NCBI GenBank assembly: GCA_020831845.1 | Contig: JAFIFV010000061.1 | Span: 1 to 64,000, forward strand | DNA: 64,000 bases | Origin: Ectothiorhodospiraceae bacterium | GTDB taxonomy: Bacteria; Pseudomonadota; Gammaproteobacteria; Nitrococcales; Aquisalimonadaceae | Direction of reading: 5' to 3' | Shown here: positions 1-14,131 of the stretch, in pieces | Layout of the letters: each line of letters starts with the position of its first letter | Numbering within the stretch: position 1 is the first letter of the stretch | The notes under the pieces: model-generated | What the model was told of the DNA's origin: nothing | Seen by the model: the letters and a program-made list of their open reading frames with translations, nothing else | The model's database searches: none | Made by a program: the position numbers and the translations under genes

Positions 1-141
1 AGGGGATAGCTACCGGCTGAAGGAGAAGCGCAAAGCAGGCGTCGTCAAACCCGCAGTGACCGTTTAGAACAGCGCTGGGTGGGTCAGTTTTCGATTTCCG
101 AATCACCGCCCAAGTGGGTCAGTTTTCAGTTGCCGTTGACA
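1..141 (+). mobile_element. 3' end of an IS21-family insertion sequence
   Basis: This is the right end of an element whose left part lies outside the window. It holds the last codons of an IstB-like ORF and then an end with two direct copies of TGGGTCAGTTTTC (80-92 and 115-127) and the terminus GTTGACA ending at 141. Repeated GGGTCAGTTTTC blocks inside the tips are typical of IS21-family ends. The base after the terminus continues directly into a helicase-like coding sequence on the other strand, so the insertion cut that gene. The family call is recognition from the IstB tail and the tip structure. Confidence 0.75.
2..67 (+). CDS. istB: IstB-like ATPase, C-terminal end only (partial)
   Basis: Only the last 21 codons are in the window, reading GDSYRLKEKRKAGVVKPAVTV followed by TAG at 65-67. 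SYRLKEKR-type tails are common in the IS21 transposition helper IstB, the AAA+ partner of the IstA transposase. The catalytic motifs lie to the left of the window, so activity cannot be judged. The stop is followed after about 12 bp by the repeated terminal sequence of the IS, as expected for istB as the last gene of the element. Confidence 0.6.
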   Translation, partial: GDSYRLKEKRKAGVVKPAVTV

Positions 142-1023
142 CTGGAGCATCTGGCCCTCGATCTCGACCGTATTGAGCGCCTCCCCGCGCCTTGGAGCAG
201 CGAGCGCCCGCCCTTAGAGAGGTCTACACGCTCTCGCAGTTTGAAGGCGTGGTAATTCGCGTGAGAATCTTGGCGCGTTCCAAGTCAGCAAACATGTCAC
301 CTGGCACAAGCTCACGACTCTGGTAGTAACTGTCCGGATCATTTGGCTGCAGGACGCGAAGGCGATCGCGTATCGTCAGGCCGGGCGCCACGATCAGAAA
401 ACCCCGAGTGAATCTCTTGTTCTGCGGATGACGGACGGCATCAATGGTCTGCCACGCAGTCAGCATCGTCATCACAATGGTCTTGCCGGCCCCCGTCGCG
501 AACTTTAGCGCGACTCGCATGAGCTCGGGATTGGCGTCGTTATTCGCGTTAGCAAGGTGTTCGATGAATCTCTTGCAGGCCCTCCCCGCACTAGGCGCAA
601 CCTCCACAGCCAGATCGCCTTTTCGATGGCCTCCCCCTGACAGAAGAAAGGGCGGATGCCGCTGAAATTGTGGTGCCTCAGGTGCTGGAGCAAGCGCGCC
701 GTCTCCGGTGTTACTTGCCACTGAGCTGGATTCGGCAACTGGCGCCAGCGATCGACCTCCTGGCGAACGCCATTGATGATGGCGGTATGGTCGTACGCTT
801 GATCCCCGGTTGGGAGCGCCCTCCCCTCGTCGAACAGCAGCGCGCCCTGCACCGCCGAATCCTTCCGCTTCCTGGGCTTGGGGATCGGGGTGAGGAACTC
901 CGCCAGCCGACGCGCTTCGATAATTTTCCGGGTTGGCTCGCCCGGCTCGTCGAGTTCCCAGTGACGCTATGGATATTCGTAGGGCGAGTTCAGTATCAGC
1001 TGCTCGAAATAAAGGCTAGCCAA
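142..1023 (-). pseudogene. Decayed DEAD/DEAH helicase, type III restriction (Res)-like
   Basis: Reading the minus strand in pieces gives one protein: ASLYFEQLILNSPYEYP, RHWELDEPGEPT, a middle part with HNFSGIRPFFCQ, then LKFATGAGKTIVMTML (Walker A) and NYHAFKLRERVDL. The pieces are separated by an in-frame TAG (967-969), a frameshift near 601-610 and another near 255-262. The 3' end is cut at 142 by the IS21 end, within GEALNTVEIEGQMLQ. The layout matches large restriction/helicase proteins with a type III Res domain. A TTG at 1021-1023 after GGAGCAAGG is a plausible original start. ORF-track entries 224..721 and 505..852 are fragments of this gene. It is clearly non-functional. Confidence 0.8.
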
Positions 1024-1228
1024 ACCTTGCTCCGATCAGGCTTCCCCAGGTGCGCGCAGAATACCGCCCGCGTCCCATGCTTTGCCCTTCGACCTGCTGT
1101 TTTCACTCTTAATGCAGGCAACTGTAACCGCAAATCTACAGCACGCCCAAGTGGTCGCACACAGTGAACCGCCCCAAGCAGGTTTGGCAAATCGAGCAGC
1201 CGGGCGGGCCCGCCGGCTAGCCGCAAGC

Positions 1229-2260
1229 TCAGACATGCGCACCGGCTTCCCCTGCGAGCAGGCTTTCGAAAGCGATCTTTTCGCTCCCTGGCCGCGGCAC
1301 CAAGGTGATCAGATTCGGCTTGTCGTCCTTGGCGATCCGCGGGGGAATCCGCTCCCAATGCACGGAGAGGTAACGCGCGCGGTCCTTCGTCGCTGCGGTG
1401 AAGAACACGAACCCGTCGCGTTCATTGAAGTAGAGCGAGGGCATTCTCTTGCCGTGCTTGAGCGTTTTGCCTTTCGCCGGCGCGACGAAGCCGAGCTGTT
1501 GAAACAGCAGGCGGTAGTCATCGAAGCCCCAGCGCCCCTGCTTCGGGGCCGCGGATCTTGCCGACTTCTCCAGAGCCACGGCTCTCAAGTGCGGGACTTG
1601 CTCGATGTCGCTGCGTGCGGCCGACCGCAGTGTCCGCCTCACCAAGTTCGCGACCGCCGCTCTGTTCTCCTGGCGTTGCTGGGTCGATAGGCTGCGCTGG
1701 CGATTGATGAACGCGCTGGGGATCCCGCGCCTCTTGAGCTCGGCCTCAACCAGCTGGTGCGACCACTTGCCGATGCACACCACGATGCGGGGCCCCAGCC
1801 AATCGAGCCAGCGCTTGAGGTGGCGCGTCACGCATTCCGCTGCCATGGGAGCTGGAGGCGCTGCATTGGCATGTGTTCGACAACGCACGGCGTTGGTGTA
1901 GGCAATATCCTCCAGCGTCAGGCCCGACTCGATTAGAGGAAAATGCATACCTACCGGCCAAGTCGGCACCACACGCAAATGAATGCGCTCAAGGTGCTCC
2001 AGCGCGTCAGCGTTTTCCTCCCGCGCAAGGTCAGCCAAGGCATCCGCCATCTGCCTGTCCTGGCTGTTGAAGCGATCGAGCGATACGCCAGGGTTTTGCC
2101 CCAGCAACAAGACCCGATTTTTCCAATAGTTCGGCCCGATATACCCCGGCCAAGGGAAGTTGAAGTCACCATCCCGGAGCACCTTCGGCAAGCCGCGACG
2201 GGTGCAGACATCGCAGCTGATGACAGAGCAGAATTCACGTACTTTTTCTTGGATGTTCAT
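1229..2260 (-). CDS. Uracil-DNA glycosylase superfamily-like protein with C-terminal extension
   Basis: 343 aa. The first about 210 residues look like the UDG fold: LLLGQNPG (residues about 51-58) corresponds to the GxxPG uracil-binding motif, YTNAVRC resembles the TNxVKC motif of family 4/5 enzymes, and VVCIGKWSHQ fits a core strand. A CDVC pair near residue 19 could be part of a cluster or zinc site, but the full four-Cys set of family 4 is not evident. The last about 110 residues (GFDDYRLLFQQLGF to the end) match nothing I recognise. ATG at 2260 follows GAGGAACACGA. It lies 84 bp downstream of the 555-aa gene on the same strand, so the two may be co-transcribed. The exact substrate is unknown. 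Confidence 0.6.
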   Translation of the reverse strand: MNIQEKVREFCSVISCDVCTRRGLPKVLRDGDFNFPWPGYIGPNYWKNRVLLLGQNPGVSLDRFNSQDRQMADALADLAREENADALEHLERIHLRVVPTWPVGMHFPLIESGLTLEDIAYTNAVRCRTHANAAPPAPMAAECVTRHLKRWLDWLGPRIVVCIGKWSHQLVEAELKRRGIPSAFINRQRSLSTQQRQENRAAVANLVRRTLRSAARSDIEQVPHLRAVALEKSARSAAPKQGRWGFDDYRLLFQQLGFVAPAKGKTLKHGKRMPSLYFNERDGFVFFTAATKDRARYLSVHWERIPPRIAKDDKPNLITLVPRPGSEKIAFESLLAGEAGAHV

Positions 2261-2344
2261 TCGTGTTCCTCGTACTTGTGAAAAATCATCCTATGCGCCG
2301 GTCGTCGCCAGACGCTGCGTATCCCGCGTCTTGAGAAGGTGACG

Positions 2345-4012
2345 TCAAGCTTCGCCGTCACCGTGGCGTTCCAGTCCCTCGAGAAAGCGCTGCTGCGCCG
2401 CATTCAGCGAACTCCTCACGGAATTCTCCAGCCGCTCGAACGTTGCGCGAATCCGCAGCGCATCCTTCTCGAGCTCGGCGATCAGGTGACTGCCTGCGCC
2501 CTCGTCGAGGAAATGCAACTGGAGCGCGCAAGCGGCGGTCGATGGGGGCGCCAAAGTCGGCATCATGCTGTTGAGGGGCAGCTCGATGAGCTCGTCCACT
2601 TCAGCAAGCGCGGGGCAGGAGCTAAAGGTATCGGGATAACGAAAGTCGAGACTGTATGGCTCGGTATACAAAGCATCTCCCAGGGTCTGCTTGACCACAA
2701 CGTCATTGACCGGCAGCACCCACCAGGGCCCGTCGCGAAGATCCGTGCGGAATCCGAAACTGTCGTAGGACTGTTCAGCGCTCACTTCGCCTAGGGCGCC
2801 GACTTGAAGCTCCTCCTCGTGGAACCACTCTAGAAACTGCTCCGGCAGGGAGGCGAGCCAATCAGTCGTGGAGTCCGAGCTCTCCCAGATCTCGCCGCCC
2901 TCGTCATCATCGCCGTACATCAGCAATGCCCTGAGCAAACCGGGCTTGCTGCCCAGCCAGAGCACCTGGTCACGGCCCGCCTTCGGCTCAGCGGTAACGG
3001 CAGGCCGGATTAGAAGGCACGCCCGGGTCAGCGCTGGCGTCGCGTGGTCGACGGCATCAGGCATGATCGCGAGCCAAGTTTCCAGGCGGAAGACCAGCCG
3101 CACGCTCGAAACAGCAGGTTCCGGTGGTGCGCTCCACCCTTTACATCCAAACGGCGAGCTAAGGCGCATGCGCACGTCCACCGCGCGAACCTCGGTCATC
3201 AGTTGAACACGGGGCACGAACAGGGCATCGCCGCACCATGGAGTCCCGTCCTCGGTTCGCGACAAGATTCGGTAAGTGTCCTGCTCCGAGGGCGCGAGAT
3301 GCCATATGGAAAGCTTGTGAAACGTTTCCGACAGCCATGACGTAGGCAGAAAATCCGGACTCCGGGAGTTATCACTCGCGAAAATATTCGCCTCATCCAT
3401 TCGGTCGAACAGCGGCCCAAGCTGGTTGCGCCGTGCAACAGCATCACATACCGCGTTTAGCATGGCGGCGAGCTCAGCGGCCCACTCCGCTGACTCCTCC
3501 CTCCTTCGTGATTCGCCCCCCAGGCGGGTATCCCGGAACAGGCGCGCCATGAAGTGATTGGGATCCGTTTCAACCCGGGAGCTTGTTACCAGCTCTCCGG
3601 CTGCGCGCGCTACCGAAATATACTTGCTTACGTACGGGGTGAGACGTCGCGCCAGCTCTGCAGCAGCCTCGGAACGAGAGGGACTAATGGCGACCCGGGT
3701 TACGTACTTGTTCGCGTCGCCCTTGGCAGCCGAATCCGGCCCCTTGGCAGCCTCAAGAGCATGCGCTCTCGTGCCGTGGGGCAGCTCGGCTAGGATCGCG
3801 CCCAGGTTACGCGCCAGTTGAATCAGGCTAGCTCGCTCCTCCGGCGACCTCTTGCGGAGCTTCCAGCCAGCCCAGTTCGGGCCGTACTGGCGGCGCTTCT
3901 CCTCGAGCCACTGCACAGTCCTCCCGTTGGCAGTCTCGCCCGACGCTCGGGCCCTCTCCTTGGTCGATCCGTCTATCGGCCGCCGCAAGCTGAAGTCGAT
4001 GATGTTCGCCAT
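2345..4012 (-). CDS. Hypothetical protein, 555 aa
   Basis: I do not recognise this protein. It is acidic and soluble, with no signal peptide or membrane segment. The N-terminus (MANIIDFSLRRP) leads into a basic stretch WLEEKRRQYGPNWAGWKLRKR, then a helical region rich in Ala/Arg (residues about 60-180). The middle and C-terminal parts look like beta-rich domains (WCGDALFVPRVQLM, WWVLPVNDVVVKQTL), followed by a final helix (ALRIRATFERLENSVRSSL). ATG at 4012 is preceded by GGAGGGAG at good spacing. It is the first gene inside the putative island, reading away from the tRNA fragment, and lies upstream of the UDG-like gene. A shared role with that gene is inference only. Confidence 0.75.
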   Translation of the reverse strand: MANIIDFSLRRPIDGSTKERARASGETANGRTVQWLEEKRRQYGPNWAGWKLRKRSPEERASLIQLARNLGAILAELPHGTRAHALEAAKGPDSAAKGDANKYVTRVAISPSRSEAAAELARRLTPYVSKYISVARAAGELVTSSRVETDPNHFMARLFRDTRLGGESRRREESAEWAAELAAMLNAVCDAVARRNQLGPLFDRMDEANIFASDNSRSPDFLPTSWLSETFHKLSIWHLAPSEQDTYRILSRTEDGTPWCGDALFVPRVQLMTEVRAVDVRMRLSSPFGCKGWSAPPEPAVSSVRLVFRLETWLAIMPDAVDHATPALTRACLLIRPAVTAEPKAGRDQVLWLGSKPGLLRALLMYGDDDEGGEIWESSDSTTDWLASLPEQFLEWFHEEELQVGALGEVSAEQSYDSFGFRTDLRDGPWWVLPVNDVVVKQTLGDALYTEPYSLDFRYPDTFSSCPALAEVDELIELPLNSMMPTLAPPSTAACALQLHFLDEGAGSHLIAELEKDALRIRATFERLENSVRSSLNAAQQRFLEGLERHGDGEA

Positions 4013-4541
4013 GTGGCACTCCCTCCGCAGTCAACAGACAGGAATCAGATCGCCCGTCTCTCCGGGCCGTCGCGCCTGACGCCGCGTTCGCGGGGTGGTC
4101 ACGAAAGGGGTTTCTCCGCCCACCCTGTCGGTGTTATCTGCGCGACCGCCGACTGCGCGCTGGCTGCACACGGAAAAGCACCGCTGCTAGGCAGACACTT
4201 TAAGCTGATAGGTAAATGACGTCCCCTTCTTTTTTGCGCTGGATAATTGCGCTGTAAATAACATATTTTTTGAGCTACATATTATCGAATTAATGAAGGG
4301 GTTCCTGGCATGGTCTGCGCTGCTCGCGAGGATTGTTCCAGAAAATGATTAGGAGACAGCGGGAGAAGGACGAGTTCGAGCTCCGTCTGGACGCGGGCGA
4401 CTAAGCAGCTGGGGCCGCGGCGAACCTCCGCCACACTACCAGCCAAATACACATTGCCGACGAGCAAGTGACAAAGGATGTACCGCACGCATTGTTCCTG
4501 ACACCTGGCCTCGCACAGAACTTGATCGCCAAGGGATAGGC
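4013..4541. other. Intergenic stretch at island edge
   Basis: No convincing gene lies between the 555-aa ORF and the tRNA fragment. The part around 4190-4310 is clearly AT-richer than the surroundings (tracts such as TTCTTTTTTG and ATATTTTTTGAG), as is common at the edges of integrated elements. It presumably contains the promoter of the minus-strand gene starting at 4012. ORF 4282..4488 has no recognisable content and no clear ribosome binding site. No integrase gene is visible here. Confidence 0.5.
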
Positions 4542-4581
4542 AATCACTGGGTCGGCGGTTCGAGCCCGTCCCGGGGAGCCA
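4542..4581 (+). other. Partial tRNA 3' end (probably tRNA-Asn), attachment-site remnant
   Basis: The sequence AATCACTGGGTCGGCGGTTC continuing to CCGGGGAGCCA is the 3' part of a tRNA. It includes the 3' side of the anticodon arm, a T arm (GGCGG, loop TTCGAGC, CCGTC), the acceptor strand CCGGGGA, discriminator G and encoded CCA. The predicted 5' partner TCCCCGG and the rest of the tRNA are absent upstream. The combination of acceptor, G discriminator and AATCACT fits tRNA-Asn(GUU). A 40-nt 3' copy starting in the anticodon loop is what tyrosine-recombinase integration into a tRNA gene leaves at the far end of an island. Confidence 0.75.
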
Positions 4582-4590
4582 AATCAGAAA

Positions 4591-4616
4591 GGCTCAGGTT
4601 CTCCTGAGCCTTTTTT
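4591..4616. terminator. Rho-independent terminator, probably bidirectional
   Basis: GGCTCAGG-TTCT-CCTGAGCC forms a perfect 8-bp stem followed by TTTTTT on the plus strand. Nine bases separate it from the tRNA CCA, so it is the original terminator of the tRNA transcription unit. On the minus strand the same hairpin is followed by TTTCTGATTT and lies just after the lpxD stop, so it can also end lpxD transcripts. Confidence 0.85.
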
Positions 4617-4625
4617 CGTTTCTGC

Positions 4626-5690
4626 TCAGTCGCTTCGGCCGCGTTTTCCCTGCTTTCCCGTCACCGCCTCCAGCTCGCGTTCCATCTTGATAACGCGACG
4701 AAACATGTCATCCAGTTGCGTGAAGCGCACCGTGTTGCGCCGCCATTCCCGCACCGGCTGTGCGGGCAGCGGGGAGGAATAAACGCCGGGCTCGCGGATG
4801 TGATTGGTGACGCCGGTCATGCCGGTGACCGTGGCACCGTCGACGATCTGGATATGGCCGGTGATGGCGGAGGCACCGCCGATGACGCAGTTGCTGCCAA
4901 TGGTGGTGCTGCCGGCCACCACGGTACAGCCGGCGATCACGGTGCGCTCGCCGATGTGCACGTTATGGGCGATGTGCACCAGGTTGTCGATCTTCACCCC
5001 GGGACCGATCACGGTATCTTCCAGCGCGCCGCGGTCGATGGTGCTGTTGGCGCCAATGTCCACATCATCCCCGATACGCACGGCCCCCAGTTGCGGGACC
5101 TTACGCCATCCCTGCGGTCCAGGAGCGAAACCGAAGCCGTCGGCGCCGATGATGACGCCGGGGTGGATCATGACGCGATCCCCCAGAGAGCAGTCGGCAC
5201 CGATACTGACGCCGTTCGCCAGCCAGCAATCCTCCCCCAGGCGCGTGCCATCGCCGATGAACGTGCCGGGGCCGACCTCGGTTCCTCGTCCCAGCCGGAC
5301 GCCGGCGCCGATGACTGCATGCGGGCCGACGGCGACGCCTGCCTCCAGTATGGCGTCAGATGCTACGATCGCGGAGGGATGGACGCCGGGGGCGGCTCTC
5401 TCGCGAGGATGCAGAGCGCTGGCAATGGCAGCATAGGCGTAGTACGGATCATCGACCACCAGCGCGGCAGTGGGGCAATACTGGCTGTGTTCTTCGCGAA
5501 CCACCGCCGCACCCGCGCCTGTGGAGCGCAGTTGATCCAGGTAACGTGCACTGGCACAGAAGCCGATTTCATCCCCAGTCGCCTTCCCCAGCAACCCGAC
5601 GCTGCGTATGCGGCGGCCAGCATCGCCAAACAGTTGGGCACCCACCAGCTCGGCAAGCTCTCCCAGGGTTCTGGAGGGTTGTTCAACCAT
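4626..5690 (-). CDS. lpxD: UDP-3-O-acylglucosamine N-acyltransferase LpxD
   Basis: Third step of lipid A synthesis: it transfers a hydroxyacyl chain from ACP to UDP-3-O-acylglucosamine in the cytosol. An N-terminal uridine-binding domain (about 1-100) precedes many left-handed beta-helix hexapeptide repeats ([26 protein letters not shown]). The catalytic-region motif [12 protein letters not shown] is intact, and a C-terminal helix follows. ATG at 5690 ([17 protein letters not shown]) gives 354 aa and matches the family N-terminus better than the track's 377-aa version. It stands alone, not in a bamA-skp-lpxD-fabZ-lpxA operon, so it may be a second copy. Confidence 0.93.
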
Positions 5691-5891
5691 TCTCGCTTGT
5701 CTCCTCCCACCTGCCGTGTCGGGGATAGACTCATTCAAACCAGCCACAGGCTCCGCCAACGGCCGATGATAATCGTATTGGCTGTCAGTTTGTCATGCGC
5801 CGGCTAACGGGTCGGCCGATGCGGCTCATGCTTCTCTGTAAACTACGCCGGGGCGGAGTGCGCAGTTCCGGGAGGTAGCGGCGGCGCGGCT

Positions 5892-7534: not shown

Positions 7535-8275
7535 TCAGGCTCCCGCTGTCAAAACCTGCCCGATTTCGCGATTGATCTGCTCCAGCGCCACGACCGGATC
7601 CTGCGCCCGGGTAACGGGGCGGCCTACCACCAGAAAGCTGGAGCCCGCCGCAATGGCGGCCGCGGGCGTCAGGATCCGATGCTGATCCCCGCTCTCCGCT
7701 CCGGCAGGGCGGATTCCCGGAGTAACAAGGAGCGGCGCCTGGCCCAGCACCTCGCGCAGTTCGACCGCCTCCTGCGCGGAACAGACCACACCATCGAGCC
7801 CCGCATCCGCGCTCAACCTGGCCAGTCGGAGCACTTGGCGGCCGACATCGGTATCCGCCCCGGTTTCCGCCAGCACCTGGCTGCTGCTGCTGGTGAGCAC
7901 GGTGACGGCGATTAGCAAGGGACTGGATGCCCCTGCGGAATCCACCGCCTCCCGGGCCGCCTCCATCATGGCGCGCCCCCCGGAGGCATGAACGTTCACC
8001 ATCCAGACGCCCAACTGTGCAGCAGCCCGGCACGCGCCCGCCACAGTATTCGGTATATCGTGGAACTTGAGATCCAGGAACACCTCGAAGCCCCGACCAG
8101 TCAGTTTCTCAACCAGTGCCGGTCCCGCCCGCACAAACAGTTCCTTGCCCACCTTCAGGCGGCACTGGGTTGGATCCAGCTGATCGACCAGCGAAAGGGC
8201 ATCGCGGGCCTCTTGGAAATCAAGCGCCACCACGACACGGGGGCCTCGCACAGCGGGTATGTTCAACTCACTCAC
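7535..8275 (-). CDS. pyrF: Orotidine 5'-phosphate decarboxylase
   Basis: Last step of UMP synthesis: decarboxylates OMP in the cytosol. The TIM-barrel motifs are present: [42 protein letters not shown] (the catalytic Lys/Asp cluster DxKxxD), VTPGIRPAG and [13 protein letters not shown]. No suitable ATG exists. GTG at 8275 ([19 protein letters not shown]) gives 246 aa, the usual length, and overlaps the lapB stop as GTGAGTGA, which indicates translational coupling. The track's 307-aa version simply extends upstream into lapB. LapA-LapB-PyrF order is common in Gammaproteobacteria. Confidence 0.93.
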
Positions 8276-9443
8276 CTTCCACTCCGTGAATCGGCTTGAT
8301 CGTGCTCCAGGACCGGCAACTGGGGCAGTGCCAGTGCAGCGTCCGCGCGGTAAATCCACAGCGGCCACAGGCATAGGAGGGCTTGCTCTTGAGCAAGGTC
8401 TCGAACAGTTCCTGTAGCACCGGCAACGGTTGATTCTGAGCCGGCGCCTCCAGCACATCCCCAGCCAGGTTGAGTTGGATCAATCGGTTGAGACCGCGCA
8501 CCGATGGCCGCTGGCGCAGTTGCTGCTCGAGGTAATCCGCCGCTGCCTGGTCCCCATCCCGGAGGCGGATCTGCTCAGCCAGAGCCAGCAGCAACGAGGC
8601 GCCATGGTAATCCTGCTGCACCGCCTGCAGATAAGCCAGGTAGTCCTGCGGACGACCGAGTTCGCGGTAGCAGGCCTCCATCGGCTCCAGGACCTCCGGC
8701 AGGTATTCCACGTCCTGGTAGCGCACGCGCTGGTACGCCTTGAGCGCCTGCTTGTAGTTGCCAGCATAACGTTCCAGTTGCCCCTGCAAAAGGCTCGCTC
8801 GCACGCAGGAGGGATCACTGGTGAGTGCGCGCTTGAGCAGATTCCGCGCCCGGTTGCGCTCCCCGGAGGCCAAAGCCGCCTCCACCTGCTCGCAGTAGAA
8901 CTGCGCGATCATGGTCGCCATGGGCTGGCCCGAACGGGACTCAAGCCGCGCTGCGGCACTGATCGCTTTGGTCCATTCCTTTTCCTGCTGGTAGACATCC
9001 AGCAGGTGGGACAGGGCGGGCTCCACATGGGCATCGGCCTGTACCACTTCCTCGAACAGGTTCTCCGCCCTGTCCAGCAGGCCAGCCTTCAGATAGTCTT
9101 CGCCCAGTGCCAGCAGCGCCTGGATGCGCTGTTCCCGGGTCAGCGACGGCCGGGCAATGAGATTCTGGTGAATCCGTATGGCCCGATCCACCTCACCGCG
9201 CCGCCGGAACAGGCTGCCCAGCGCAAAATGTGTTTCCACCGTGTCGGCGTCCACCTCCACCATACGGGTGAACACCTCGATCGCCTTGTCCGGCTGCTCG
9301 TTCAACAGGTAGTTGAGCCCCTGAAAATAGGCGTCCTGCAGCCCTTCCGACGAACCGGAACCTCGGGTGTTGCGCCCCCGCCGACCGATAATCCAGCCGG
9401 ACAGGGCAGCAACGGGAAGCAGCAGCCAGAACAGCTCTACCAT
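8268..9443 (-). CDS. lapB: LPS assembly protein LapB (YciM)
   Basis: 391 aa. The N-terminal membrane anchor ([20 protein letters not shown]) is followed by TPR repeats across about residues 35-340 and a C-terminal rubredoxin-like metal domain ([20 protein letters not shown]). In E. coli LapB controls lipopolysaccharide synthesis by promoting FtsH-dependent turnover of LpxC. It lies 2 bp after lapA and overlaps pyrF, so the three genes form a tight unit. All four metal-binding cysteines are present. Confidence 0.95.
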
Positions 9444-10323: not shown

Positions 10324-12000
10324 TCAGTCGTTCTGGTTGTCCATCTGCTCCTTGAGCAGATCCCCAAGTGTGGTCGTCCCGGCGCTGCTCGGCCGGCTGT
10401 ACTCCTGCACTACCTTGGCCTCGTCCTGGAAGTCCTTGGCCTTGATAGAGAGGCTGATCGCGCGGTTCTTGCGATCCACACCCACGAACTTCGCCTCGAC
10501 CTCTTCTCCTTCCTTGAGATAGTTGCGCACGTCCTCGACACGCTCGCGGGCCACATCGGCAGCACGCAGGTGCCCCTCGATGCCATCCCCCAGGTCGATC
10601 ACGGCAACCTTGGCGTCAACTTCCTTCACGGTACCCTTGATGATGGAGCCCTTGGGATTCTCGGCCATCCAGTTGGAGAAGGGATCCTGCTCCATCTGCT
10701 TGATGCCCAGGGAAATACGCTCCCGGTCCGCGTCCACCGAAAGCACAACGGCTTCGACTTCGTCGCCCTTCTTGTAGTGACGAACGGCTTCTTCACCGGT
10801 CTCGTCCCAGGACAGGTCGGAGAGGTGGACGAGGCCGTCGATACCACCGTCCAGGCCGACGAATATGCCGAAGTCGGTGATCGACTTGATGCCACCGGAA
10901 ACGCGGTCACCCTTGTTATGGGTAGCGGCAAACAGCTCCCAGGGGTTGGCCTGGCACTGCTTGACGCCCAGCGAGATACGACGACGCTCCTCGTCGATAT
11001 CCAGCACCATGACCTCGATCTCGTCGCCCACGGCAACAACCTTGGCCGGGTTGACGTTCTTGTTGGTCCAGTCCATTTCGGAGACATGCACCAGACCTTC
11101 CACGCCTTCCTCGATTTCCACGAAGCAGCCGTAGTCGGTGATGTTGGTCACGCGGCCCATGACCCGGGTGTTCTCCGGGTAGCGGGAGGCGATATTTTCC
11201 CACGGATCCTCGCCCAGCTGCTTGAGGCCCAGGGAAACGCGGTTGCGCTCGCGGTCGAACTTGAGAACCTTGACTTCAATTTCCTTGCCGACTTCCACCA
11301 CCTCGGAGGGATGCTTCACGCGGCGCCAGGCCATGTCCGTGATGTGCAGCAGACCGTCGATGCCGCCCAGATCCACGAAGGCGCCGTAGTCGGTGAGGTT
11401 CTTGACGATACCGTTGAGCACCTGGCCTTCCTGCAGCCGCTCCAGCAGCGCTTCGCGCTCGGCGCTGTACTCTTCCTCAACCACGGCACGGCGGGAGACG
11501 ACGACGTTGTTGCGGCGCTCGTCCAGCTTGATGACCTTGAATTCCAGCTCGCGGCCTTCCAGGTACGTGGTATCGCGAACAGGACGGATGTCAACCAGGG
11601 AACCGGGCAGAAACGCGCGGATGTGCTTGAGATCCACGGTAAAGCCGCCTTTGACCTTGCCACTGATCACGCCAGTGACGGTCTCGCTGGATTCATAAGC
11701 CTTCTCGAGATGTCTCCAGGCGTGCGCACGCTTGGCTTTCTCCCGGGACAGGCGAGTTTCCCCGAAACCGTCCTCCACGGCGTCGAGAGCCACCTCGACA
11801 TCATCACCGACTTCAACTTCCAGGTTGCCTGAGTCGCCGAAGAATTCGCTGGCCGGGATCACGGCCTCGGACTTCAGCCCGGCGTTGACCACCACGTGAT
11901 CGCCCTGGATGGCAACGATCTTGCCGGTGACAATGGAGCCAGGCCGCATGTCGGTCTTGGCAAGGCTCTCTTCAAACAGTTCAGCAAAGCTTTCGCTCAT
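10324..12000 (-). CDS. rpsA: 30S ribosomal protein S1
   Basis: 558 aa, the length of the six-repeat S1 of Gammaproteobacteria. It starts [26 protein letters not shown]. Six OB-fold S1 repeats follow, visible from recurring cores such as [51 protein letters not shown] and [24 protein letters not shown]1 recruits mRNA to the 30S subunit. ATG at 12000. It lies about 107 bp downstream of cmk, the conserved cmk-rpsA order. Confidence 0.97.
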
Positions 12001-12107: not shown

Positions 12108-12791
12108 TCATAATGATAGCCGGTTTTCCAGCAGAGTCATGACCTTGCCTACCACCTGCTCGACGGTCAGGCCTGTGGTATCGATCACCTCGGCGTCGGA
12201 GGCCGGCTTCAACGGCGCAGTGGCGCGCGTACTGTCCCGCTCGTCACGCTCGTTGATCTCCCGTAAAAGATCGGCAAGGTTACCATCGACCCCCTGCTCC
12301 TTCAACTGCTTATGGCGCCTCAGCGCGCGCTCCTCGGCACTGGCCGTGAGGAATACCTTGAGCTCCGCATCAGGGAAAACGACGGTGCCCATGTCGCGAC
12401 CGTCGGCCACTAGGCCGGGAGCGGCGCGGAAAGCCCGCTGGCGATCCAGCAACGCCTCCCTGACAGCCGGAATCACGGCCACCTGCGAAGCCAGGTTGCC
12501 TGTGCGTTCCTCGCGCAGCTCCAGCGTAACGTCGTCACCATCGACGGTGACACGGATCTGGCCATCGGAATCCGGCTCGAAAGACACGTCCAGATCACGG
12601 GCGAGCTGGACGATGCCATCGCCGCGCTGAGGGTCCACGCCGCGGCGGCGGGCGGCGAACGCCAGGGCCCGATAAATGGCGCCACTATCCAGCAGGTGCC
12701 AGCCGGTGGCCCGCTGCAGGGCGCGGCAGACGGTCCCCTTGCCGGATCCGCCGGGGCCATCCACGGCCACGACCGGGGCATCCCGGCTCAC
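12108..12791 (-). CDS. cmk: Cytidylate kinase
   Basis: 227 aa. Phosphorylates CMP and dCMP with ATP. It carries the P-loop VDGPGGSGKGT, the CMP-binding LLDSGAIYRALA region, GRDMGTVVFPDAELKVFLTAS, and the lid RAERR-type stretch EERALRRHKQL. No ATG fits. GTG at 12791 (VSRDAPVVAVDGPGG) overlaps the aroA stop as GTGA and has GGAGG upstream. The track's 256-aa version runs back into aroA. Coupled translation with aroA is likely. Confidence 0.94.
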   Translation of the reverse strand: MSRDAPVVAVDGPGGSGKGTVCRALQRATGWHLLDSGAIYRALAFAARRRGVDPQRGDGIVQLARDLDVSFEPDSDGQIRVTVDGDDVTLELREERTGNLASQVAVIPAVREALLDRQRAFRAAPGLVADGRDMGTVVFPDAELKVFLTASAEERALRRHKQLKEQGVDGNLADLLREINERDERDSTRATAPLKPASDAEVIDTTGLTVEQVVGKVMTLLENRLSL

Positions 12792-14131
12792 TGCGCGCCT
12801 CCGGTGGCATCCAGGCGCAGTCCGCTGCGCCTGGCGAGTCTGGCGAACCCCGGGAACGAGGTGACGACGTTGTCGCAATCAAGGATTTCGATCGGTGCGC
12901 TGGCGCGCAGCCCGGCCATCGCGAACGACATCGCGATGCGATGGTCGTGGTGGCTGTGGACGGTACCCCCACCAATCGGACCACCCTTGATGACCATGCC
13001 GTCATCGGTGGGGCGGGCATCCACGCCCAGCGTCTGCAAGCCTTCGGCCATCACCGCGATGCGGTCGCTTTCCTTGACCCGTAGCTCCTCCGCCCCACGC
13101 AGCACCGTGGTGCCTTCCGCGCAGGCCGCGGCAATGAAGAGCACCGGGAACTCGTCAATCGCCAGCGGCACCATACGCGCCGGGATCTCGATGCCACGCA
13201 GCCGGGCGGCGTGCACACGGATGTCGGCCACGGGCTCGCCGCCGACCGTTTTCCGGTTACGCAGCTCGATGTCCGCTCCCATCAACGACAGGATATCCAG
13301 TACCCCGGTCCGCGTCGGGTTGACGCCGACATGCTCGAGCACCACTTCGGAGCCCGAAGCAATGCTGGCCCCCACCAGGAAGAAGGCGGCAGAGGAGATA
13401 TCCGCAGGCACGTCGATGTCGCCACCCCGAAGGGCATGCCCACCGGCCACGCCGACCCAGCCCTGTTGCCGCAACACCGGATAACCGAAACCCTCGAGCA
13501 TGCGCTCGGTATGGTCGCGCGTTACCGCCGGCTCGCGCACCCAGGTTTCACCTTCGGCATAAAGTCCTGCCAGCAGCAGACTGGATTTCACCTGGGCGCT
13601 GGCCATCGGCATGTCGTAACGGATTCCCCGCAGCGGCTGGCCGCCGCGAATCCGCAGCGGCGCGGTGCCCTGCTCCGTGGTTTCCACGCTGGCGCCCATC
13701 AGCGCCAGAGGGTCGGTGACCCGACGCATGGGCCGACGGCTGAGGGAGGGATCACCGGTCAGTTCACTGTCGAACGCCTGGCCGGCGAGCAGCCCGGCCA
13801 ACAGACGCATCGAGGTGCCCGAGTTGCCCATGTCCATGGGACCCGCCGGGGCCTGCAGCCCGTGCAGGCCCACACCGCGAATGCGCAACCGGCCGGCATC
13901 CGGCCCGTCGATCTGCACCCCCATGGCGCGGAATGCGTTCAACGTTGCCAGCGCGTCGGCGCCCTCCAGAAACCCGCTAACCGCCGTCGTTCCATCGGCC
14001 AGCGACCCCAGCATGACAGAGCGGTGGGAGATGGACTTGTCCCCGGGCACTCGGAAACGGCCATGAAGCTCACCGCCGGGGTTGGCCGTGAACCGAAGGC
14101 CTGCTGTTTCGTGCTGATTCACCTGGTTCAT
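12788..14131 (-). CDS. aroA: 3-phosphoshikimate 1-carboxyvinyltransferase (EPSP synthase)
   Basis: 447 aa. Joins shikimate-3-phosphate and PEP in the shikimate pathway. Motifs include GDKSISHRSVMLGSLADGTT, GNSGTSMRLLAGLLAGQ, TGDPSLSRRPM and EELRVKESDRIAVMAEGL. The MGNSGTSMRLL form belongs to the glyphosate-site region of class II-like sequences, though class assignment is only by eye. It overlaps tyrA upstream (ATGA) and cmk downstream (GTGA). In Pseudomonas tyrA and aroA are a single fused protein; here they are separate. Confidence 0.95.
   Translation of the reverse strand: MNQVNQHETAGLRFTANPGGELHGRFRVPGDKSISHRSVMLGSLADGTTAVSGFLEGADALATLNAFRAMGVQIDGPDAGRLRIRGVGLHGLQAPAGPMDMGNSGTSMRLLAGLLAGQAFDSELTGDPSLSRRPMRRVTDPLALMGASVETTEQGTAPLRIRGGQPLRGIRYDMPMASAQVKSSLLLAGLYAEGETWVREPAVTRDHTERMLEGFGYPVLRQQGWVGVAGGHALRGGDIDVPADISSAAFFLVGASIASGSEVVLEHVGVNPTRTGVLDILSLMGADIELRNRKTVGGEPVADIRVHAARLRGIEIPARMVPLAIDEFPVLFIAAACAEGTTVLRGAEELRVKESDRIAVMAEGLQTLGVDARPTDDGMVIKGGPIGGGTVHSHHDHRIAMSFAMAGLRASAPIEILDCDNVVTSFPGFARLARRSGLRLDATGGAQ

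Follow-up and report, generated by a model that had tools for sequence, protein, structure and literature searches.

A very probable decayed remnant of an integrative element in the tRNA-Asn gene of an Ectothiorhodospiraceae bacterium

An island in the tRNA-Asn gene of this bacterium is, very probably, the immobile and decayed remnant of an integrative element. The stretch of DNA analysed here (64,000 nt, hereafter the window) covers positions 1-64000 of the 69.9-kb contig C123, from a 4.69-Mb genome (G000) available as 158 contigs with 89% completeness. C123 has no sequence to the left of the window, which starts at its base 1, and the other half of the island is found on contig C27. The island's own DNA amounts to ~5.9 kb, with 1,527 nt on C27 (C27:139-1665) and 4,400 nt in the window (142-4541), in addition to ~2 kb of an insertion sequence (IS). 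In order from the tRNA, it consists of ~0.5 kb of non-coding DNA, an ankyrin-repeat gene, a broken restriction gene carrying the IS, a gene of the uracil-DNA glycosylase (UDG) superfamily, a gene for a 555-aa protein, 0.53 kb of non-coding DNA and a tRNA fragment (Table 1). Its GC content is 60.7% in the window part and 56.2% in the C27 part, compared to 64.1% and 62.7% in the flanks. A tRNA-targeted island of this kind is already well known and the principle is textbook; here, both ends have been fixed for an island that would escape automatic searching, because it has no integrase and is split over two contigs.

Table 1. Features of the island, its flanks and related elements. Positions are those of the window unless a contig or locus is named.
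Feature	Position	Strand	Basis or remark
Right end of IS21-family insertion (istB end and terminal repeats); contig breaks inside	1..141	+	77% identity to G002:C92 IS right end
CTGG, 4-bp target duplication beside IS	142..145	.	Other copy C27:139-142 (CCAG on + strand)
Broken 5' part of BPTD_3080-type restriction endonuclease gene (ResIII helicase part), frameshifted	142..810	-	NF046055
Intact 343-aa gene, uracil-DNA glycosylase superfamily domain; island cargo	1229..2260	-	Pfam UDG 1.3e-7
Island cargo: intact gene of 555 aa, no relatives known	2345..4012	-	
Non-coding island end beside tRNA fragment	4013..4541	.	No integrase trace in six-frame search with HMM of related integrases
Displaced 3' tRNA-Asn fragment (right attachment repeat)	4542..4583	+	42/42 identity to C27:1666-1741
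Original terminator of host tRNA-Asn gene	4586..4615	+	Similar to the one that follows tRNA-Asn in G014
Additional, solo lpxD paralog immediately beyond the island end	4626..5759	-	TIGR01853 4.8e-111
pyrF	7535-8458	-	Conserved right flank, as downstream of tRNA-Asn in relatives
rpsA	10324-12000	-	Conserved right flank, as downstream of tRNA-Asn in relatives
cmk	12108-12878	-	Conserved right flank, as downstream of tRNA-Asn in relatives
Island gene with ankyrin repeats (300 aa), close to the tRNA end	C27:274-1176 (L006)	+	
Elements at tRNA-Asn in four relatives	L058 9202-16608; L077 4081-12494; L078 2667-12493; L075/L076		

The right end of the island is marked by the displaced tRNA fragment. 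Window 4542-4583, which reads AATCACTGGGTCGGCGGTTCGAGCCCGTCCCGGGGAGCCA followed by AA, is identical at all 42 positions to the 3' part of the intact tRNA-Asn(GTT) called by ARAGORN at C27:1666-1741 (minus strand), and the two copies have the same orientation. The first two bases of the repeat are the final two of the anticodon loop, and it includes CCA, which ends at 4581. A wider match of 85% (E 7.9e-17) extends over window 4542-4616 and C27:1627-1705 (minus strand). The initial annotation had described a 40-nt 3' fragment of tRNA-Asn running to CCA, followed by the original terminator, and had proposed a search for an identical copy in an intact tRNA-Asn to the left; this description holds, with an identity of 42 nt instead of 40, and the intact gene is present on C27. 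No complete tRNA was called by ARAGORN in the 64-kb window, and the tRNA-Asn on C27 is the only one found in the genome. A 21-base core of the repeat, with up to two mismatches allowed, is present in the genome only at the window fragment, at tRNA-Asn and at tRNA-Phe. A 42/42 match to the sole tRNA-Asn found is far beyond chance. The fragment is followed by a terminator with a 13-bp stem, a 4-nt loop and a T-run (-20.6 kcal/mol), which differs from the one after the intact tRNA-Asn on C27 (-22.4 kcal/mol). The separate terminators at the two copies indicate that the displaced end kept the host terminator, while the restored tRNA uses one brought in by the element.

The order of genes in relatives places the two contigs on either side of one locus. 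On C27, uvrB and aat (an aspartate transaminase-type gene) precede tRNA-Asn, and this uvrB-aat-tRNA-Asn order is kept in nine relatives (G001, G003, G004, G005, G009, G010, G011, G012 and G014). Downstream of tRNA-Asn, pyrF follows at ~1.5 to 5 kb in G001, G002, G004, G005, G010 and G014, with rpsA and cmk also beyond it wherever the examined stretch extends far enough. The empty order is thus uvrB-aat-tRNA-Asn-(variable genes)-pyrF-rpsA-cmk, of which C27 is the left half and the window the right half, and the element therefore entered tRNA-Asn between them. Both flanks are colinear in G001, G004, G005, G010 and G014, and the right half in G002. None of the uninserted relatives has a displaced fragment; each gave one match to the tRNA-Asn end, except G004, in which a second complete tRNA-Asn is located in a tRNA cluster elsewhere. 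These relatives are at genus-to-order level, so that the empty site, for which a check in sister strains had been suggested, is seen in other species only. Together with the identical repeat, the uninserted order bears out the earlier reading of this fragment as the far end of an element in tRNA-Asn. In G001, a reading frame of 1,075 aa, which by eye resembles a sensor gene, is located between aat and tRNA-Asn (L043 3545-6772, minus strand), whereas this gap is well under 200 nt in other relatives.

Four relatives carry elements of their own at this gene. In G009, G026, G018 and G046, a displaced tRNA-Asn fragment is found 7.3, 8.3, 9.8 and 24.9 kb downstream, respectively, with repeats of 53, 47, 46 and 51 nt. 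These 7-25 kb elements share with the island the target gene, the side of integration and an overlapping direct repeat, and tRNA-Asn is thus used repeatedly as an integration site within the order. The repeat of the island starts 6 to 9 nt later than theirs, which may reflect an eroded left end of the attachment core or a different integrase. Unlike the island, at least the element of G009 carries genes resembling those for phage packaging, with a match to a Sf6-type small terminase and a weak match to a scaffold protein. Three of the four elements (G009, G026 and G018) keep a related tyrosine integrase ~100-200 nt from the displaced fragment, reading away from it, whereas the island has none.

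It is very unlikely that the fragment arose from a chromosomal rearrangement or a partial duplication of tRNA-Asn instead of site-specific integration. Such an origin would agree with the lack of any integrase left in the island, and with the gene content between tRNA-Asn and pyrF, which differs from relative to relative. However, the flanks are still colinear with those of the relatives, and the fragment spans the part from the anticodon loop to the tRNA 3' end with its terminator, as in the four elements at the same gene.

The two parts of the island are connected by an insertion of the IS21 family. Its left end is C27:1-138 and its right end window 1-141, and both ends match a complete istA-istB element in G002 (on C92; ~2.0 kb, with ~1.98 kb between the matched ends), the orientation of which fits a single IS spanning C27 and C123. 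A short target duplication, of 4 bp, flanks the IS, as in the IS21 family. Unlike the complete G002 homologue, in which istA and istB are both seen, only the IS ends are assembled in G000, and a genome search found no assembled IS21 transposase gene, as would be the case for a collapsed repeat. One partial match was obtained when plasmids were searched with the IS ends. As an independent line of evidence, the NF046055 profile of the broken restriction gene covers positions 60-265 on the window and its next piece, positions 285-309, is found directly past the IS on C27. The continuation of this profile across the IS, the matching ends and the CTGG/CCAG duplication all argue that C27 and C123 are neighbours. 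There is a high likelihood that the two contigs adjoin via one IS, a join that is drawn from these sequence features and not from a spanning read, and as neighbours they make the island fully readable except for the IS interior. It is most improbable that C27 and C123 are not neighbours and that a larger island has its integrase in sequence that was missed by the assembly or binned elsewhere: the assembly is fragmented (158 contigs, 89% completeness) and the IS right end has at least one other copy in the genome (C5:1-145, the only other one found), but the restriction-gene profile runs from the window into C27 across the IS, and the CTGG duplication matches C27 exactly, in contrast to ATGG after the IS at C5.

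With this join, the 1.5-kb stretch from the tRNA to the IS and the 4.4-kb window side make up the whole island apart from the IS, and both are without an integrase. Ten Pfam matches to tyrosine integrases were found in the genome, none of them on C27 or C123, and an HMM of the related integrases detected neither an integrase nor a remnant in six frames of both pieces. The initial annotation had expected the integrase beside the intact tRNA. Its position by the displaced fragment in three relatives indicates that this arrangement is not the rule at the tRNA-Asn site, and no integrase was found at either end of the island. A 44-position C-terminal piece of a Phage_integrase domain is located elsewhere in the genome, just downstream of tRNA-Phe (C152:15408-15539; L072, L082), and is probably another island relic.

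Tyrosine integrases are known to insert elements into tRNA genes, the element supplying the tRNA end that makes the target whole again (PMC4383910), and the anatomy of the island fits this process. An integrative element very probably entered the 3' half of tRNA-Asn by site-specific recombination, breaking the gene within the anticodon loop or beside it. The attachment site of the element would have provided a terminator along with a 3' tRNA end identical to that of the host, restoring tRNA-Asn on the left (C27), and the host's original 3' end and terminator would have been pushed ~6-8 kb to the right (window 4542-4615). The element then very probably decayed: its restriction gene was frameshifted, hit by the IS21-family insertion and truncated at the 3' end, and any integrase disappeared. 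The repeat, the synteny to relatives without an insertion, the IS bridge and the lack of an integrase are shown by the sequences; we infer both the tyrosine integrase as the agent and its former presence in the element. The loss of the integrase and the decay of the restriction gene imply that the island is immobile and incapable of self-excision now; neither excision nor transfer is expected from it without an integrase. Either the island is old, or it was trimmed once it had arrived.

The arrangement agrees with the tRNA-gene (tDNA) islands collected by Islander (PMC4383910), in which an intact tRNA gene and, at the opposite end, its displaced 3' fragment share one orientation, with an attachment site in the anticodon region and a separation of 2-200 kb. 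Here, the intact tRNA-Asn and a 3' fragment of the same orientation are both present. The fragment is downstream of the intact tRNA, as given by the colinear order in relatives and the IS bridge, and the length of ~5.9 kb plus ~2 kb of IS, given the inferred join, falls within that range. The uninserted site is found in relatives, of other species only. The difference is in the integrase gene, which was not found in the searched island. The Islander integrase filter (PMC4383910) would reject the island, which is a decayed remnant and not a putatively active island, and it is filed here as a remnant only.

The contents of the island are partly in ruins. The restriction gene is recognisable, in order, over positions 60-309 of the BPTD_3080 family (NF046055), with window pieces that fall in different frames (positions 60-125, 125-238 and 240-265) and a further piece, at positions 285-309 of 970, on C27, where the gene continues past the IS and is then truncated. 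Compared to the family, the gene is frameshifted, interrupted and truncated, and is thus not functional. The IS end, this broken helicase-type gene and genes of unknown role to the left of the fragment had all been noted in the initial annotation, and all are real. For the ankyrin-repeat protein, a PADLOC match to PDC-M72A was not accepted as a function, since ankyrin repeats match broadly.

The pair of intact orphan genes is the island's only unexplained content. The 343-aa protein shows weak matches to family-4 UDGs, and the 555-aa protein has no Pfam, NCBIfam or PADLOC match. A search of 53 further genomes of the order found no relative of the 343-aa gene, and a sample of 368 further genomes of the class contained none of the 555-aa gene; no relatives of the 343-aa gene were found in phages either. 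Across GTDB contigs, viral contigs, plasmids and the class and order genomes, with contig scans that detect close relatives only, the two genes matched nothing but themselves, aside from another locus of G000, on C94, that matched the 343-aa protein weakly. Single-sequence structure models of the two proteins are of too low a quality to be used, with mean pLDDT values of 35 and 38. The adjoining genes could conceivably form an undescribed two-gene system for anti-phage defence or for sensing of DNA modification beside the dead restriction gene, although we consider this unlikely.

To the right of the fragment, "lpxD and core genes" had been reported. Core synteny does follow, although it begins at pyrF. 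The varying content between tRNA-Asn and pyrF in relatives makes the window lpxD and an adenosine deaminase gene part of the variable stretch. This lpxD is a second, solo copy and not that of the core operon; the canonical lpxD, with 47% amino acid identity to it, is located on C151 in the order bamA-lpxD-fabZ-lpxA-lpxB, the neighbours being named by eye from their sequences. In G001, an lpxD on C115 (L044) is 65% identical to the solo copy and is likewise without the usual operon neighbours.
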